Below, in pieces: positions 3-33,557 of a stretch of 33,558 bases of DNA (positions are counted from its first letter, which is position 1; every line of letters begins with the position of its first letter). Below the pieces are notes generated by a model. It was given only the letters and a program-made list of their open reading frames with translations, was not told the origin of the DNA and ran no database searches. This DNA comes from Chloroflexota bacterium (GTDB lineage Bacteria > Chloroflexota > Dehalococcoidia > DSGV01), in assembly GCA_021787985.1 (NCBI GenBank), contig JAJYLG010000032.1, positions 1 through 33,558 of the forward strand. Reading direction: 5' to 3'. Both the position numbers and the translations under genes were made by a program.

Positions 3-230
3 CTGCCGTGCTACTGCGGTTGCGGCGCCTCCCAGGGACACCGCAGCCTGCAGGACTGCTTCCTCATCCCCACGGGCGGATACGACGCGCACGCGGCGAC
101 CTGTGGCATCTGCGAGCGCGAGGCGGTCGAGGCGCGCCGCCTGCAGGGCGAGGGCCAAGACACCTCCGCGATCCGCGCGTTCATCGACGCGAACTTCGGC
201 CGCTTCGGCGCGCCTACCAACACGCCCTGA
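3..230 (+). CDS. PCYCGC-motif protein, C-terminal part (5' end outside window)
   Basis: The frame is open from the first bases to the TGA at 228-230 and gives 75 residues with no start codon inside the window, so this is the 3' end of a gene that begins upstream. The fragment opens with LPCYCGCGASQGHRSLQDC and later has CGICEREA. That is the hallmark of the PCYCGC-motif (lipo)protein family, whose function is not established. The Cys-rich pattern (PCYCGCG, a Cys about 10 residues on, then CxxC) suggests metal or redox chemistry at the cell surface; this is inference. The next gene starts only 12 bases downstream, so the two are probably co-transcribed. The N-terminal signal or lipobox cannot be seen. 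Confidence 0.8.
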   Translation: MPCYCGCGASQGHRSLQDCFLIPTGGYDAHAATCGICEREAVEARRLQGEGQDTSAIRAFIDANFGRFGAPTNTP

Positions 231-242: not shown

Positions 243-746
243 ATGGCCAAGCGGAAGACAAGACCGACATCCCGCTCGTGGTTCCTCTCACGCCTGTTGC
301 TCGGCGTGTCCCTGGTCGCCGTCGTCGGCGCCGCCGCCTGGCTCTTCGTCGTGGCACGCCCGCGTGGCACGGCGGGAACGGCTGCCCCGTCGCCGGCCGC
401 GTCGGGCACGGCCGTAGCGGCGGGCGTCCAGGCGCTCGATCCCTCGGTCGACCTGGGCCGCGTGCCACTCAACACGACGGTGAAGCATGCGTTCCGGCTG
501 CAGAACGTCGGGGCGGCGCCGGCCACGCTGGGCCGAGCGCGTATCGAAGTCCTGGAGGGCTGCTGACCGCCCGAGCCGGTCGTGGGTGCCACGACCATCC
601 AGCCCGGGGCGGACACAACGGTCTCGCTGAGCATGATGATGCATCCCGGCATGGAGGGGCCGCACCTCTTCCGCGTGACGGTGCCCGTTCAGGGCGCGGT
701 CGGCTCGGGCGAGCTGCAGCTCTACGTGAAGGCGGACTTCAGGTAG
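243..746 (+). CDS. Membrane-anchored DUF1573-like protein, candidate selenoprotein (TGA 564-566 read as Sec)
   Basis: The ATG at 243 has a near-perfect RBS. The frame meets TGA at 564-566 (codon 108) and then stays open, coding-like and family-like, to TAG at 744-746, giving 167 residues if TGA is read through. Residues about 12-38 are hydrophobic, a signal anchor. Residues about 65-167 look like an Ig-like DUF1573 domain (DLGRVPLNTTVKHAFRLQN before the TGA; TTIQPGADTTVSL and GPHLFRVTVPV after it). The TGA lies in EGC-U-PPEPVV, where I recall homologues having a second Cys (GCCPP), so Cys107-Sec108 would be a redox or metal pair. A Met/His-rich stretch MMMHPGMEGPH follows. A hairpin at 578-596 resembles a bacterial SECIS. 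The alternative is a plain nonsense mutation giving a 107-aa product. No Sec machinery genes are in the window. Confidence 0.72.
578..596 (+). promoter_or_regulatory. bSECIS-like stem-loop downstream of the in-frame TGA
   Basis: GGTCGTGG (578-585) pairs perfectly with CCACGACC (589-596) around the loop GTG. The helix starts 11 bases after the TGA at 564-566, and the apical loop is 19 bases after it. Bacterial SECIS elements are known to place an apical loop with G/U residues about 16-37 bases after UGA, and the E. coli fdhF element has similar spacing and a GU in the loop recognised by SelB. The match is by eye, with no energy calculation. Confidence 0.65.
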
Positions 747-803
747 GCCGAGCCTGCCGCCGCACGAAGGCGGGGGCCGGGCGCCGCGCTCCGTGTTGCC
801 GCA

Positions 804-1860
804 TCAGGCGCCCTGGCGGCGGATGGTGCCCACGGCCAGCGCGGCGAACAGGGCGGCGAACGCGAGCACGGCGAGGAGATCGAGGCGCACGGACGTGGTG
901 AGCAAACCCTGCCCTTTCAGCATCACATCGCGCAGGGCGCCGACGCCGTAGGTCAGCGGCAGCGCGTAGGCGGCAGGTCGGAGCCAGTCGGGCAGGGACG
1001 ACAGCGGCCAGATGACGCCGCAGAGCAATCCCTGCGGGAGGATGACGATGGGGATGAACTGGACGGCCTGGAGCTCGGTGCGGGCGAAGGTCGAGAGGAA
1101 GATCCCGAGGTTGACCGCCACCAGGGCGAGGGCCAGCACCAGCACGAAGACGCTGAGCAGCGCGCCGTGGTAGTGAACGCGTAGGCCGAGGACGGCTACG
1201 AGGATGACCGCCACGGCCTGGAGCAGGGCGAACAGCCCGAACCCTGCCATGTAGCCGACGACCAGCTCAGAACGACGCAGGGGAGCTGCCATCAGCCGCT
1301 CCAGGGTCCCGGCGACTCGCTCGCGCAGGAAGGCCACGGCCGTCAGCAGAAAGACGAAGAAGAAGGCGAAGTAGCCGACCATCGCCGGCGCGAAGAAGTC
1401 GAGGGCGTCGTAGCGCGGCCCGCCGTGCACGTAGGTGATGTCGACGTGCGGCGGAGTGAGGCCGCTGGGCGCGCCGCCCAGGCCGAGCAGCGCCAGCGGT
1501 TGCCGGGTCGGTGCCTTCGAGGACCACGCGAGCCTGCACGTTGGGCGGGACGCCGCTCACAACGACGGCCGCCTGCACGTCGCTGCTCCGCACCCGCTCG
1601 AGGGCCTCGTCCGCGCTCATGACCGTTACCTGCGCGCGGCCCGTGGCGCAGAGGGCGTCGGCGAAGCGTGAGGCCAGGGCGGCGTCCGTGACGGGGCTCG
1701 CCACGGCGATGCGACGGTCCGGCTGCTGGTGGCGCAGCAGGTATCCGATCAGCGCGAGGACGACCACCGGCACCACGAGGAGCAGGGCCAGCGTCCGCGG
1801 GTCGCGGCGGAACTGCTGGACCACCCGGACGCTCACGGCCCACGTCCTAGTTCGGTTCAC
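804..1860 (-). pseudogene. ABC-2 type transporter permease, interrupted by a frameshift near 1490-1515
   Basis: The N-terminal part (GTG at 1858-1860, GGAG about 8 bases upstream) has one membrane segment (ALLLVVPVVVLALIGYLL) and an extracytoplasmic stretch ending about VVLEGTDPA. The remainder continues in another frame from about LALLGLGGAPSGLTPPHVD through ITYVHGGPRYDALDFFAPA and five more membrane segments to the stop at 804. Together they make one ABC-2 permease of normal order: N-terminal TM, large loop, conserved FFFVFLLT and RERVAGTLERLMAAPL, then TM helices. One single-base indel explains the split. The gene overlaps the 3' end of the ATPase gene by about 12 bases, as expected for an exporter pair. 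A real mutation and a sequencing or assembly error cannot be told apart here. Confidence 0.7.
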
Positions 1861-28420: not shown

Positions 28421-29425
28421 TCAGCGCTCCGGCGGCCGCACCACCGCGTAGATGAGCACGAACAGCCCGACCGTCGCCGCGCCGAACATGCCGATGAGGA
28501 GCGCCAGCGTCTGCCCGGCGCCCCAGTGCAGCCCGCCGCCGCCAGCGGTGCGGGCGGCGATCTGCAGGTCGAGGAAGGACGACACGCTCTTCATGCCGTC
28601 GCGGTTGCCGCGCGCGCCGTCCCACACGGCGAGGGCGACGTTCGTCGTGGTGCCGGGCGAGAGGGACGGCATGCCCGCGGGCTGAGTCATGTCGCGGTAG
28701 AGCAGGACGCGCCACCTGCCGTCGCGCCACTCACCCAACCCGTGCACGTCCTGCTGGGGGGCGTCGGTCAGGGTACCGAACTGGTTGGCGACGAGGTTGT
28801 CGATCGGGGTGGTCCGTGCCGGGATGCTGACCAGGTTGTTCACGTCCCGCGCGGTCATGTAGACCGGGTCGTTGCGGAAGGGGTACAGGTCGACCTGCAT
28901 GTCGGGGTGCAGCGCCTGAATCGAGGCGCTGGCCTGCTTGGTGGCGATGTCCTCCTGCCACACCGCCCGCCACTGCCAGATGTTCACGCCGCGGTCCGGC
29001 GCGACGTCGCCCATGCAGAAGGAAGGCACGGTCTTGCCGGGCGTGCGCGGGAATTCGACCGCGGCGGCGTCGCCGTACTGCGTCAGTCCGAGTGTCAAGT
29101 CGCGGGTGGAGTCGCCCCACTCCAGCAGGATGTAGAGCCGCTTGCCGTCGTGCAGGGCGCGGGCGCGGACAGTGGCCACCTCGCCGCCGCCCATCGGGTT
29201 GGTCACGTTCTGCATGGAGAGCGTCACGTCGACGCTCGGCGCCTGGTCCCACACGGAGGAGTACAGGTTGGTGGTCGACACCTTGCCGCTGGCGGCGGGG
29301 GCGACCAGCAGCGGATTCTGCGAGCGGACGGGATTGACCCCGGCGACCGCCAACAGCACCGCGGCCACGAGCAGCCCGAGGGGGAGCGCGGCGCGGCGGC
29401 CGCGGGTGAGGCCAAGACGTTTCAT
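28421..29425 (-). CDS. NXR/DMSO-reductase-family gamma subunit, haem b-binding
   Basis: This 334-aa exported protein has an N-terminal hydrophobic segment (residues about 12-30, Sec-type or anchor) and one C-terminal membrane helix (about 305-327). Between them is an ethylbenzene-dehydrogenase-like haem-binding domain: LYILLEWGDST, AAVEFPRTPG, PSFCMGD (Met138, a likely axial ligand by analogy with EbdC) and GVNIWQWRAVWQ. In type II DMSO-reductase enzymes this subunit passes electrons between the beta subunit and the respiratory chain. Its start overlaps the chaperone stop (ATGA). The C-terminal anchor suggests a complex tethered to the outer face of the membrane. Confidence 0.85.
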   Translation of the reverse strand: MKRLGLTRGRRAALPLGLLVAAVLLAVAGVNPVRSQNPLLVAPAASGKVSTTNLYSSVWDQAPSVDVTLSMQNVTNPMGGGEVATVRARALHDGKRLYILLEWGDSTRDLTLGLTQYGDAAAVEFPRTPGKTVPSFCMGDVAPDRGVNIWQWRAVWQEDIATKQASASIQALHPDMQVDLYPFRNDPVYMTARDVNNLVSIPARTTPIDNLVANQFGTLTDAPQQDVHGLGEWRDGRWRVLLYRDMTQPAGMPSLSPGTTTNVALAVWDGARGNRDGMKSVSSFLDLQIAARTAGGGGLHWGAGQTLALLIGMFGAATVGLFVLIYAVVRPPER

Positions 29426-30180
29426 GACGGGCCGCCTTCCTCCTCGCGTGACGGGCGGACGGCCGGCGGCGCGTCGACCACGGGGCAGCCGTCGCAGTCC
29501 TCCGGCTCGGGCAGCGGCTGCGGCTCGGGACTCCAGGCGGGGAGGTCGTGCAGGCGGAGCCGCCGCGTCTCGGCCGCGACGAGCTGTTGGAGGAGGTCCG
29601 CGGCGGCGCGGTAGGCGGGGTCGTCCACGCGCGCGCGGGTGCGCTGCGCCACGGCGGGCAGCCAGCGCGCCAGGTGGTCTCGGTAGAAGGCGCGCAGCGC
29701 AGCGCGGCAGATGCGCGCGGACTCACGGTCGCCGTGACGGCGGGCGACGGCCTCCTTGGTGGAGAGCAGATAGCAGAACTCCAGCTCGACGGCCAGATGG
29801 TCGGGCGGCTCGCCTTGCACCTCGACGCCGAAGGCGCGGTAGAAACCGGCGAGGTCGGCCATCTGCGTCGTCTGCTGGAAGAGGTTGCGGGAGCTGTAGG
29901 AGGTCTCGTACAGCGGGCAGTCAGGCGAGCGGGTGTGGGTATAGGCGCGGGCGTAGCGCCGCTCGAGCTCGTCCGCGTCGCGCGGCAGGGCGTCGGCGAC
30001 ACGATGCGCGGCGGCGGCGGCGGCGGGCCCCAGCACCTCGGCCGCGGCCGGCAGCGCCTCCAGCGCCTCGCGCAGCGCCGGCGCGTTCTCACGGCTGGGC
30101 GGCGACCAGGCGAGCGCCAGCGCCCGGTAGCACACCGCGCGGGCGATGGCCCGGTCGCCCAGCAGCCGCTCGGCGCTCAT
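29422..30180 (-). CDS. TorD/NarJ-family chaperone for the molybdoenzyme
   Basis: This 252-aa protein is helical throughout and carries the family pattern LYETSYSSRNLFQQTTQMAD followed by LAGFYRAFGVE, then LAVELEFCYLLSTKEA. TorD-like chaperones hold the apo-alpha subunit until the Mo-bis-MGD cofactor is loaded and before export. I choose ATG 30178-30180 because the beta-subunit stop overlaps an AGGAG site at proper spacing; the frame is open to 30228. It lies within the operon between beta and gamma subunits and overlaps gamma by 4 bases. Confidence 0.88.
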   Translation of the reverse strand: MSAERLLGDRAIARAVCYRALALAWSPPSRENAPALREALEALPAAAEVLGPAAAAAAHRVADALPRDADELERRYARAYTHTRSPDCPLYETSYSSRNLFQQTTQMADLAGFYRAFGVEVQGEPPDHLAVELEFCYLLSTKEAVARRHGDRESARICRAALRAFYRDHLARWLPAVAQRTRARVDDPAYRAAADLLQQLVAAETRRLRLHDLPAWSPEPQPLPEPEDCDGCPVVDAPPAVRPSREEEGGPS

Positions 30181-30190
30181 CGCCGCGCTC

Positions 30191-31450
30191 CTAGACCGAG
30201 TTGATGTACCGGTCGGATGGCCGCTCATAGAAGGGCTCCATTACGGTGATGCGCACCGCCTCTCGGCCGCGCTTGTCGAAACCGACGACGGTGTCGTTGT
30301 AGAGGGACCAGGTCTTGCCACCGACGGTAACGTCGCGGACCTTGGGGCCCTCCTGGATCTCGTAGCGGAAGATGACCGTGCGGGTTGCACGGAAGAGCTG
30401 CAGCACGGCGGTCAGCTCGCGCGAGGGCAGCTCGTAGCGGGCGATGGCGTCGTCCACGCCGGGGCCGAACATCTGGCGCAGGTAGGGACGCGGCACCCAG
30501 CGCGGGGGGATGTAGTAGACGTTCGGGCCGGTGCCGAACTGGGGGTAGAGCGGCAGCGCCACCCGCTCGACGTGCACCAGAAAGTAGAGCGGGTTGGAGC
30601 GGTCCTCCGCCCAGGTGCCGTCCGAGTTGAGCCGCGCCAGCCCTTGGAGGCGGATCTTGCCGACGCACGCCGACATGCAGCGCGTTTCCATCGGCACTCC
30701 GTCGCTCAGGGGGTCGGCCCCCTCGATGCGCGGGTAGCACGCGATGCATTTCTCCGAGACGCGCGTCGTGGTGCGGAACATGGGCTTCTTGTATGGGCAC
30801 TCCTCGGCGCACTTGCGGTAGCCGCGGCAGCGCGACTGGTCGATCAGCACGATGCCGTCCTCGTGCCGCTTGTAGATGGCGTTGCGCGGGCAGGCGGCCA
30901 GGCAGGCGGGGTAGGTGCAATGGTTGCAGATCCGCTGCAGGTAGAAGAACCAGGTCTCGTGCTCGGGCAAGGACACCGGCTTCGGCCGGCGCAGGTCGCC
31001 GGTGCCGTTGCGCGCGGTGTCCTCGTAGAGGTTGGGCGCCGTCCAGTCCTCGTCCTTGGGCAGGTAGCCGAGCGCCTCCTGGCCGGCGTTCTGCTTGGCG
31101 GCGGCTTCGAAGATCGTCATCCCCTGGTAGGTGCCGTAGGGCGCGGTCTTCGCGTCCTTGTTGGCGGCGTCCCACGTCTGCCCGCCGGGGTTCACCTGCT
31201 CCAGCATCTGCAGCAGGTGGACGTCCCACTGGTGCGGGTAGCCGCCGTAGGGCTTGGTCTCGACGTTGTTCCACCACATGTACTCCTGGCCTTCGCTGAA
31301 GGTCCAGGTCGACTTGCAGGCCATGCTGCAGGTCTGGCAGGCGATGCAGCGGTTGATGTTGAAGACGGCGGCGAACTGCCACTCGGGGTGCGCCTCCGGA
31401 AAGCGGTAGCGCATCTTGCGGCCGAGCTGCCAGTTGAACACGTCGGCCAT
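30191..31450 (-). CDS. nxrB: Nitrite oxidoreductase/nitrate reductase-like beta subunit (four Fe-S clusters)
   Basis: This 419-aa electron-transfer subunit carries four cysteine sets: Cys35/38/41/45, Cys175/178/183/187, Cys208/214/218 with Tyr211 in place of the fourth Cys (the expected [3Fe-4S] site), and Cys235/238/258/262. The stretches NWQLGRKMRYRFPE, VFNINRCIACQTCSMACKST, YMWWNNVETKPYGGYP and LPEHETWFFYLQRICNHCTY match, from memory, NxrB of Nitrospira and anammox bacteria far better than E. coli NarH. The ATG at 31448-31450 follows one base after the stop of the 92-aa gene. Whether the complex oxidises nitrite, reduces nitrate or uses another oxyanion cannot be settled from this subunit. 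Confidence 0.9.
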   Translation of the reverse strand: MADVFNWQLGRKMRYRFPEAHPEWQFAAVFNINRCIACQTCSMACKSTWTFSEGQEYMWWNNVETKPYGGYPHQWDVHLLQMLEQVNPGGQTWDAANKDAKTAPYGTYQGMTIFEAAAKQNAGQEALGYLPKDEDWTAPNLYEDTARNGTGDLRRPKPVSLPEHETWFFYLQRICNHCTYPACLAACPRNAIYKRHEDGIVLIDQSRCRGYRKCAEECPYKKPMFRTTTRVSEKCIACYPRIEGADPLSDGVPMETRCMSACVGKIRLQGLARLNSDGTWAEDRSNPLYFLVHVERVALPLYPQFGTGPNVYYIPPRWVPRPYLRQMFGPGVDDAIARYELPSRELTAVLQLFRATRTVIFRYEIQEGPKVRDVTVGGKTWSLYNDTVVGFDKRGREAVRITVMEPFYERPSDRYINSV

Positions 31451-31451
31451 C

Positions 31452-31730
31452 TCAGTCGCCCCCTTCCGCGGCGGTCGGGCCGAAGACCTCGCCGATCAGC
31501 CGCTGCACCCAGTCCGAGCCGCGCAGCTCCAGCACGCCGTTGGTGCCGGCGAAGTAGGGGTTGGCAAAGAGCTTCGCGATGCGCGGCGGGTCCCAGCCCA
31601 TGCGCGCGTACTCCTCGATGAAGCAGCGGGCCATGGCCTCGAGGCCGTCGCCTTCGCCATCCCAGGGGATGCGCACGGCGATCGCTTCCAGCGGGTCGCT
31701 CGTCTCGTAGGACTTGCGGGCGCCTTGCAT
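31452..31730 (-). CDS. Small protein (92 aa) between the alpha and beta subunit genes
   Basis: The ATG at 31728-31730 is preceded by AGGAGG that overlaps the alpha-subunit stop, and the stop is one base from the beta start, so translation is tightly linked. The protein has EAMARCFIEEYARMGWDPPR and RIAKLFANPYFAGTNGVLEL, then DWVQRLIGEVFG. It is largely helical, soluble, and has no cofactor motif. I recall similar short proteins beside other molybdopterin oxidoreductases in diverse bacteria, but none has a known role. A function in assembly or maturation of the alpha-beta unit is an inference from position. Confidence 0.8.
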   Translation of the reverse strand: MQGARKSYETSDPLEAIAVRIPWDGEGDGLEAMARCFIEEYARMGWDPPRIAKLFANPYFAGTNGVLELRGSDWVQRLIGEVFGPTAAEGGD

Positions 31731-31739
31731 GGCGGCCTC

Positions 31740-33557
31740 CTAGGCGCGCACCAGGCCGCCGGCCAGGTAGCGCAGCATGAAGTCGTCCTCGCTGCCGGGC
31801 CGCCGCGAGCGCTCGTCCGGCAACCAGAGTCCCTTGCCGTCGATGCCTCCCGCCTCGGCGCGGGTGATGCGGATCAGCGTCTCCTTGGGCACGGTGTTAA
31901 CCGCGTGATTGTCCTCCTCGTAGCCGAAGACGAAGCCCATGAGTCCGAGCTTCTTGTGGAAGAGGCTGTCGGTCTGATGCATGGGCGGCGCCCAGCCGCG
32001 GGTGACGCTCTGCTGGCTGCCGTAGCGGAAGGTGGCCTGGTACCCGGTCTCCGGCGAGAGCGCGAGCCCGTCTGGCCGGGTCTCGTGCGCATGGACGGTG
32101 CGTTCGGTGGCCATCCAGCCGGAATGCTTCATCATCGTGACCTCGTACGGGTAGGACGGATTGATCTTCACGCGCACCATGCAACGCGCCACCTTGTAGA
32201 ACGGGTCGTCCGGCTTCCAGCCGCGATACGGCCGGTCCGAGGCGGGCCCGTCGATCCAGATGTAGTCGCCGTCCTCGATGCCGAGGTCGCGGGCGGCCTC
32301 CGGGTTGACGTGGAGCTGCCAATCGCCGACGCCCGGGCTGCGACGGTCGCGGCGGTACGGGTCGCCGAAGTTGCTGCTCCAGATCAGGTTCCAGTCGACC
32401 ACGGCCCACGACGAGTGGGTGGTGTGCCGCTGCTTCGGGGTCATGCAGTAGAAGCGGTAGCCCTGGTCGAACAGCGGGTTGCGGGTCTGCTTGACCTCGC
32501 TCCACGGCATCTTGACGTTGCGCACCGCACGCAGGTCCGCGTCGGTCGCGTCGAGGGCGATGCCGTAATCCTTTGGTCGGACATAAGGGCTGGAGGAGAC
32601 GATGACGTTGGGAAGGTAGGGTGTCGCTTCGACGGGCTCGCGGTGGGACACCAGGTTCTCGCCGTAGTCGATCGCCTCGGGCAGGTCGCAGTAGCTGTTG
32701 AGCCGGCCGGTGTCGGTGTAGAACGGAATGCTGTCGTGCACCTGTTCGTAGAAGGGGATGCGCGGGTAGGTGCGATACATCATCAGGGCGGCGCCGGGCT
32801 CGCCGTACTTGCCTCGCATGATGTCGTCCACCGTGTAGCCGACCGTGGTGAACGACGCGTCCAGAATGCGTTGGATGTGGACATGCGAGCGCTTCTCGAG
32901 CACGAACTTCCAGTAGTCGGAGCAGCGGCGGTCCTTCAACTCGTCGGCCAGCGCGGCGGCGACCCGCGCGAAGACCATCGGGTCGTCGAGCGTGTCGTAG
33001 AGCGGCTTGATGCCGCCACCGCCCCAGATCTGGAGGAACGGGTTGGAGCAGGAGCCGGCCAGCTCCAGGTCCTGGAACTCGAGCCACGAGTTGACGGGCA
33101 GCACGACATCGGCGTACTCGGCGGAGCCCGTCCACTCGATCTGCTGGTCGATGATCAAGTCAACCTTGGGGTTGACGTTCTTGATGATGTCGTAGTGCCA
33201 CTTGGCAACGTTGAGCAGGTTGGCGTTGTTGTACCAGATGACCTTGGTGGGTGTGGGCATGTGGGTCTTCCCGGTGAAGACCTTGCGTCCCTGCGGCGTC
33301 TCGACGATCAGCGGACGGTCGCCGAAGCCCCAGTAGCCGGGCTCTTCGCCGTGGCCGGTCTCGCGGATGTTGGCGCGCGTGACCTTGGCCGCGGGGTCGA
33401 GCACGGGGTTGAACGGGTCCTCTTTCGTCCAAGCGGCGAGGCCGGGACCGACCCAGGGGGTGCCCTGGAAGATCGCCCCCTTGTAGTTGCCCGCCCAGGT
33501 GTGGCAGCCGGCGCCGCGCTTGCCGATGTTGCCCGTCAGCAGCAGCGGCAGGTACAG
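31740..33557 (-). CDS. nxrA: Nitrite oxidoreductase/nitrate reductase-like alpha subunit, C-terminal part (5' end outside window)
   Basis: The frame is open from the window edge to TAG at 31740 and gives 605 residues, roughly the C-terminal half of an enzyme of about 1,100-1,200 aa. The start lies upstream, and an internal GTG at 33404 is not the start. It begins LYLPLLLTGNIGKRGAGCHT and continues with FTGKTHMPTPTKVIWYNNAN, EYADVVLPVNSWLEFQDLEL, RFYCMTPKQRHTTHSSWAVV, NFGDPYRRD, the MGD-binding domain (about 31900-32430) and RYGSQQSVTRGW. From memory these match the Nitrospira/anammox-type NxrA. The active-site Asp and N-terminal Fe-S cluster lie outside the window, so activity cannot be inferred here. 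Confidence 0.9.
   Translation of the reverse strand: MYLPLLLTGNIGKRGAGCHTWAGNYKGAIFQGTPWVGPGLAAWTKEDPFNPVLDPAAKVTRANIRETGHGEEPGYWGFGDRPLIVETPQGRKVFTGKTHMPTPTKVIWYNNANLLNVAKWHYDIIKNVNPKVDLIIDQQIEWTGSAEYADVVLPVNSWLEFQDLELAGSCSNPFLQIWGGGGIKPLYDTLDDPMVFARVAAALADELKDRRCSDYWKFVLEKRSHVHIQRILDASFTTVGYTVDDIMRGKYGEPGAALMMYRTYPRIPFYEQVHDSIPFYTDTGRLNSYCDLPEAIDYGENLVSHREPVEATPYLPNVIVSSSPYVRPKDYGIALDATDADLRAVRNVKMPWSEVKQTRNPLFDQGYRFYCMTPKQRHTTHSSWAVVDWNLIWSSNFGDPYRRDRRSPGVGDWQLHVNPEAARDLGIEDGDYIWIDGPASDRPYRGWKPDDPFYKVARCMVRVKINPSYPYEVTMMKHSGWMATERTVHAHETRPDGLALSPETGYQATFRYGSQQSVTRGWAPPMHQTDSLFHKKLGLMGFVFGYEEDNHAVNTVPKETLIRITRAEAGGIDGKGLWLPDERSRRPGSEDDFMLRYLAGGLVRA

Follow-up and report, generated by a model that had tools for sequence, protein, structure and literature searches.

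A gene near the start of this Chloroflexota contig is interrupted by an in-frame TGA. The question raised by the locus is whether this codon ends translation or is read as selenocysteine and, in the latter case, what the product may do. The window (i.e. the whole stretch of 33,558 nt that was analysed) contains the gene at 243–746 on the forward strand, encoding 167 amino acids when the TGA at 564–566 (codon 108) is translated as Sec; this assignment is based on the translation and on homologues with TGA or Cys at the same position. No other in-frame TGA precedes the stop codon, a TAG at 744–746. The original prediction was right that the frame stays open past the TGA to this TAG, but its count of 65 following codons was too high, the actual number being 59. 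The ribosome-binding site that it had described (AAGGAGG), a strong Shine-Dalgarno sequence, is present at 231–237 on the forward strand, 5 nt 5' of the ATG at 243.

The contig start cuts the preceding gene, a member of the PCYCGC family (OS_HP4/CYCXC-like), leaving only its 3' part (3–230, forward strand; stop TGA at 228–230). This fragment matched PF13798 with 67.8 bits, above the cut-off, and NF041379 with 61.6 bits, below the cut-off of 90. As the PCYCGC-family gene ends 12 nt upstream of the selenoprotein gene, the two probably form one transcript. At the far end of the window, minus-strand genes at 28421–33404 in the ORF list resemble those of a molybdopterin oxidoreductase, including a ferredoxin-type subunit, one more subunit and a chaperone.

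Selenocysteine machinery and homologues with Sec or Cys at codon 108

A search of the genome for selA, selB, selC and selD had been proposed with the original prediction, and all four were found. Matches were obtained for selA (contig C72, 490 bits), selB (C8, 342 bits), tRNA-Sec (C86, 78.7 bits) and selD (C22, 332 bits), the last being of the Sec type and carrying an in-frame TGA itself. Homologues of the window selenoprotein were detected in 15 genomes in a search of 100 relatives. The TGA was aligned at G-C-U-P in 13 of these 15, with TGC and TGT being present in G011 and G036, respectively; selA was not found in the G011 genome, which is 69% complete. Widening of the searches to 393 genomes of the class and 400 of the phylum yielded further members. 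The fetched loci contained 44 distinct genes with a TGA (including that of the window), always at GC-U-P, and three with a Cys codon (TGC/TGT) at codon 108, namely those of G011 and G036 and one of two tandem paralogues in G322, the other of which has Sec. On a phylogenetic tree the Cys-containing rows require three changes, at least two of which are forced by well-supported branches. Homologues therefore have either Cys or Sec at this residue, and the TGA, far from being confined to one assembly, recurs in dozens of independent genomes.

Any lone in-frame TGA may originate as an ordinary stop codon, a frameshift, a sequencing error or the mark of a pseudogene. For this gene, such an origin is hardly credible given the 44 distinct genes with TGA at one codon and the Cys pairs, to which are added the Sec machinery and the covarying hairpin and downstream purifying selection described below. 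Genome-wide reassignment of TGA to another amino acid would also produce an in-frame TGA without termination. This explanation is so improbable as to be negligible: tRNA-Sec, SelA, SelB and SelD are present, TGA appears to be a normal stop elsewhere (e.g. in the PCYCGC-family gene just upstream) and homologues without Sec have Cys at this residue rather than Trp or Gly.

Several members have unusual architectures. A rhodanese domain is fused to the GC-U-P selenoprotein domain at 245–1006 (minus strand) of L012, the same place as L035, in G078. Two-domain proteins are encoded in L011, L056 and L058, with Sec replaced by Ala or Asp in the first domain and the TGA retained in the second. A tblastn search of plasmids gave no match to the selenoprotein. 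The single match of an exact-motif DNA scan of genome contigs lay in an HD-domain gene of Paenibacillaceae, from an unrelated family, and was rejected as due to chance; as the scan also missed known motif-bearing relatives, it says little about the breadth of the family.

A conserved bSECIS hairpin follows the TGA

The hairpin of the original prediction was recovered as described, at 578–596 on the forward strand, with an 8-bp stem and a GUG loop (GGTCGTGG-GTG-CCACGACC). It starts 11 nt after the TGA, its loop begins 19 nt after the TGA and its energy is -12.5 kcal/mol. The published bSECIS model specifies a loop of 3–9 nt with a G among its first two nucleotides, a stem of 4–16 bp, a distance of 16–37 nt from the UGA and an energy of at most -7.5 (PMC13188914), and the window hairpin fits this model in loop, stem, distance and energy. 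A search of Rfam gave no real match.

A hairpin in the same register was present in all 44 TGA members, with stems of 6–9 bp, loops of GUN or AGUUC and loop starts 18–22 nt (nearly always 19 nt) after the TGA. No hairpin was found in this register in the three Cys members. Among 36 distinct hairpins, 93% of cells were paired as compared to 72.5% in shuffles, and both sides were altered, indicating compensatory changes, in seven of the eight pairs. The covariation score was 0.641 as compared to 0.246 in shuffles (0/500 as high) and did not exceed 0.302 when the partners were slid; kinship among the sequences inflates these scores, but has no bearing on the absence of the hairpin from the Cys forms. 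When synonymous-codon choice in the hairpin was tested sequence by sequence, with codon usage taken from these sequences themselves, the signal was weak (P values of 0.02–0.26 each), and reliance is therefore placed on the covariation and on this absence.

The codons downstream of the TGA encode part of a conserved domain

Two sets of closely related members were used to count codon differences after the TGA; the window and its nearest relative have diverged too far to be informative. Synonymous differences exceeded nonsynonymous differences in both the f104 set (440 versus 188) and the f33 set (190 versus 98), a pattern of purifying selection indicating that the downstream codons evolve as protein. 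An Ig/PapD-like domain was modelled for residues 59–167 (417–743, forward strand) by AlphaFold2 with a pLDDT of 96.9 and a pTM of 0.87. The model is a sandwich domain with three strands encoded after the TGA. A Foldseek search with this model matched HYDIN/ASH/PapD-like Ig domains and no thioredoxin fold; the PDB sequence matches were likewise HYDIN and similar Ig domains, giving no functional hint.

Codon 108 is almost certainly selenocysteine, and the gene a true selenoprotein gene, because the sel genes, the TGA/Cys homologues, the hairpin, the constrained downstream codons and the fold all point the same way. The proposal of a selenoprotein with a Cys-Sec pair is thus borne out by the Sec genes, by 44 TGA and three Cys members and by a covarying hairpin. 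In this strongly supported reading, UGA 108 is decoded by SelA, SelB, SelC and SelD under the direction of the hairpin at 578–596.

Conserved residues and a candidate metal site

Alignment of 47 sequences showed G72, N88, G106, C107, U/C108, P109 and H141 (window numbering) to be invariant, and M137 and several other residues to be >90% conserved. Four of these form the motif G106-C107-U108-P109 (558–569, forward strand), with U or C at 108. The nearly invariant M137 (651–653) and the invariant H141 (663–665) fall in the forward-strand motif MHPGMEGPH (639–665), a source of candidate metal ligands together with C107 and U108. Judged from the sequences, Cys107, Sec108, Met137 and His141 may form a soft-metal site.

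The N-terminus of the window protein contains one hydrophobic segment, a putative membrane anchor, and many homologues have instead a lipoprotein-type signal ending in Cys. The selenoprotein domain should therefore face outward.

Copper-linked genes lie near the selenoprotein gene at many loci

To control the gene neighbourhoods, 40 further regions, similar in total length, were taken from genomes carrying the gene. With seeds drawn from the target loci themselves, so that the counts are biased upward, PCYCGC genes were found near 27 of 46 target loci (0/40 controls), NapH-like ferredoxins near 16 (0/40), cupredoxins near 16 (3/40) and Cu-ATPases near nine (0/40). Several of the loci had no copper gene near the selenoprotein gene. 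By genome, PCYCGC and the selenoprotein co-occurred in 11 of 15 (P = 5e-7). In the window, the PCYCGC-family gene is the sole adjacent copper-linked neighbour, the region further upstream being off the contig. The operon of the f104 set has the order PCYCGC, CuA cupredoxin, NapH-like ferredoxin, CuA-cytochrome c and selenoprotein, and both of its CuA proteins have complete CuA ligand motifs. This gene set, with its two CuA-type proteins, was noted in loci L114–L123; we know of no role for the arrangement.

The best overall explanation, to which we assign a probability of roughly 0.55, is that the protein is an outward-facing selenoprotein acting as a Cu(I) chaperone or reductant. A soft-metal or copper role is proposed because of the copper and CuA gene neighbourhoods and the conserved Cys-Sec-Met-His residues; for copper itself, the prediction stands at about even odds. 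The original prediction had named soft-metal or redox chemistry, which these neighbourhoods support and which we still only infer. The membrane-anchored protein would present an outward-facing Ig/PapD-like domain, whose adjacent Cys107-Sec108 pair, together with Met137 and His141, would hold Cu(I). With the PCYCGC protein and the NapH-like ferredoxin as putative partners, copper would be delivered to, or reduced for, copper proteins outside the cytoplasm, CuA domains among them. A narrower and more tentative version, at clearly less than even odds, is a dedicated selenium-dependent CuA assembly factor, in which the Cys-Sec-Met-His Ig-domain protein would load or reduce copper.

Two other roles for a true selenoprotein were considered. 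A thiol-selenol redox partner, serving for instance cytochrome c maturation or the reduction of disulfides, could form a selenylsulfide from the adjacent Cys and Sec; the copper genes would then be no more than co-regulated. TlpA/ResA genes were present in 5/46 loci as compared to 0/40 controls, and the Cys form of G011 has ResB and genes for cytochrome c biogenesis next to it (both identified by eye). In G021 a gene resembling CcdA/DsbD, likewise identified by eye and without a Pfam hit, follows downstream, and in G078 the selenoprotein domain is fused to rhodanese. We consider this role unlikely, as redox activity alone does not account for the conservation of His (invariant) and Met (nearly so), copper genes are the commoner neighbours and the fold is not that of thioredoxin. 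The second role is that of an extracytoplasmic scavenger, not a chaperone, for resistance to copper or other soft metals. Such a function would suit G023, with CsoR and CopA (a two-HMA Cu-ATPase) directly 3' of the selenoprotein gene, G078, with CopA (Cu-ATPase) and a His/Met-rich protein at the locus, and the Met-rich proteins encoded close to f104 members. The conserved operon, however, in which CuA electron-transfer proteins occur together with a NapH-like ferredoxin, resembles respiration or assembly and not resistance, making a scavenger quite improbable.

The subfamily ties selenium use to copper-protein genes and provides the PCYCGC family with a partner. If the narrower version is true, a CuA assembly factor whose gene shares an operon with those of PCYCGC and NapH-like proteins would be widespread in one bacterial phylum.

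Comparison with known selenoproteins and copper-delivery proteins

The original description as DUF1573-like holds at the level of the family, with 40 of 47 members matching PF07610 (best E value 3.6e-14), but not for the window protein itself, which at 21.7–23.5 bits falls below the Pfam gathering threshold of 26.1. Weak matches to the OS_HP2 model NF041425 were obtained for 19 of 47 members (best E value 5e-11); its cut-off of 100 bits was passed by no genome among 151, the window protein reaching 14.6 bits. OS_HP2, the catalogued DUF1573 selenoprotein, has Sec in a UGC motif (PMC2398784, PMC13188914). The two families share a DUF1573-like Ig domain with Sec in some members, but differ in motif, U-G-C in OS_HP2 and E-G-C-U in the window family. 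Profile alignment to a canonical DUF1573 member places EGC against CGC and Sec in an insert, such that the window family has Glu at the known Sec position and Sec after the second Cys position. The window family is distinct from OS_HP2 because its Sec is at another position, and differing Sec positions are treated as separate subfamilies in the 2026 catalogue of 119 entries. The GCU-type DUF1573 form is absent from this catalogue, and searches of the literature on DUF1573 with selenocysteine or copper, on PCYCGC and on Chloroflexi selenoproteins turned up no account of the window protein. Judged against the published catalogue, unpublished GenBank annotation aside, the GC-U-PP family is an uncatalogued DUF1573-like subfamily, a well-supported addition to selenoproteins with a non-thioredoxin fold.

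In G004 and G073, a further DUF1573-like gene is interrupted by two in-frame TGAs (L167 near 2554 and L168 near 1902, both minus strand). The motifs are GG-U-M-U-G and GG-U-S-U-G where canonical DUF1573 members have CGC, and a SECIS-like hairpin lies 18–19 nt past the second TGA, in the register seen in the GC-U-P members. These genes possibly represent a double-Sec DUF1573-like variant in two genera.

The OS_HP4/CYCXC (PCYCGC, PF13798) family, whose gene lies next to that of the selenoprotein in the window and often near it at other loci, is unrelated in sequence to the window selenoprotein, a partner from another family. It is also a selenoprotein family: the genes matching PF13798 in seven relatives (G023, G036, G027, G088, G056, G007 and G073) have a single in-frame TGA each, in keeping with the known OS_HP4 selenoproteins. 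An adjacent Cys-Sec pair, as in the window family, is found in the CU-motif metal selenoproteins SaoL, SaoC, MbdU and KCU-star (PMC13188914). The NCBIfam models of these four matched none of the 47 members, and the PCuAC and Sco families were absent from the Pfam hits of the same members. Sco and PCuAC are outward-facing proteins that deliver copper to, or reduce it for, CuA through Met/His or Cys/His ligands. The role proposed for the window protein, copper for CuA, is the same by analogy, but would be carried out by an Ig/PapD-like fold with a Cys-Sec pair.
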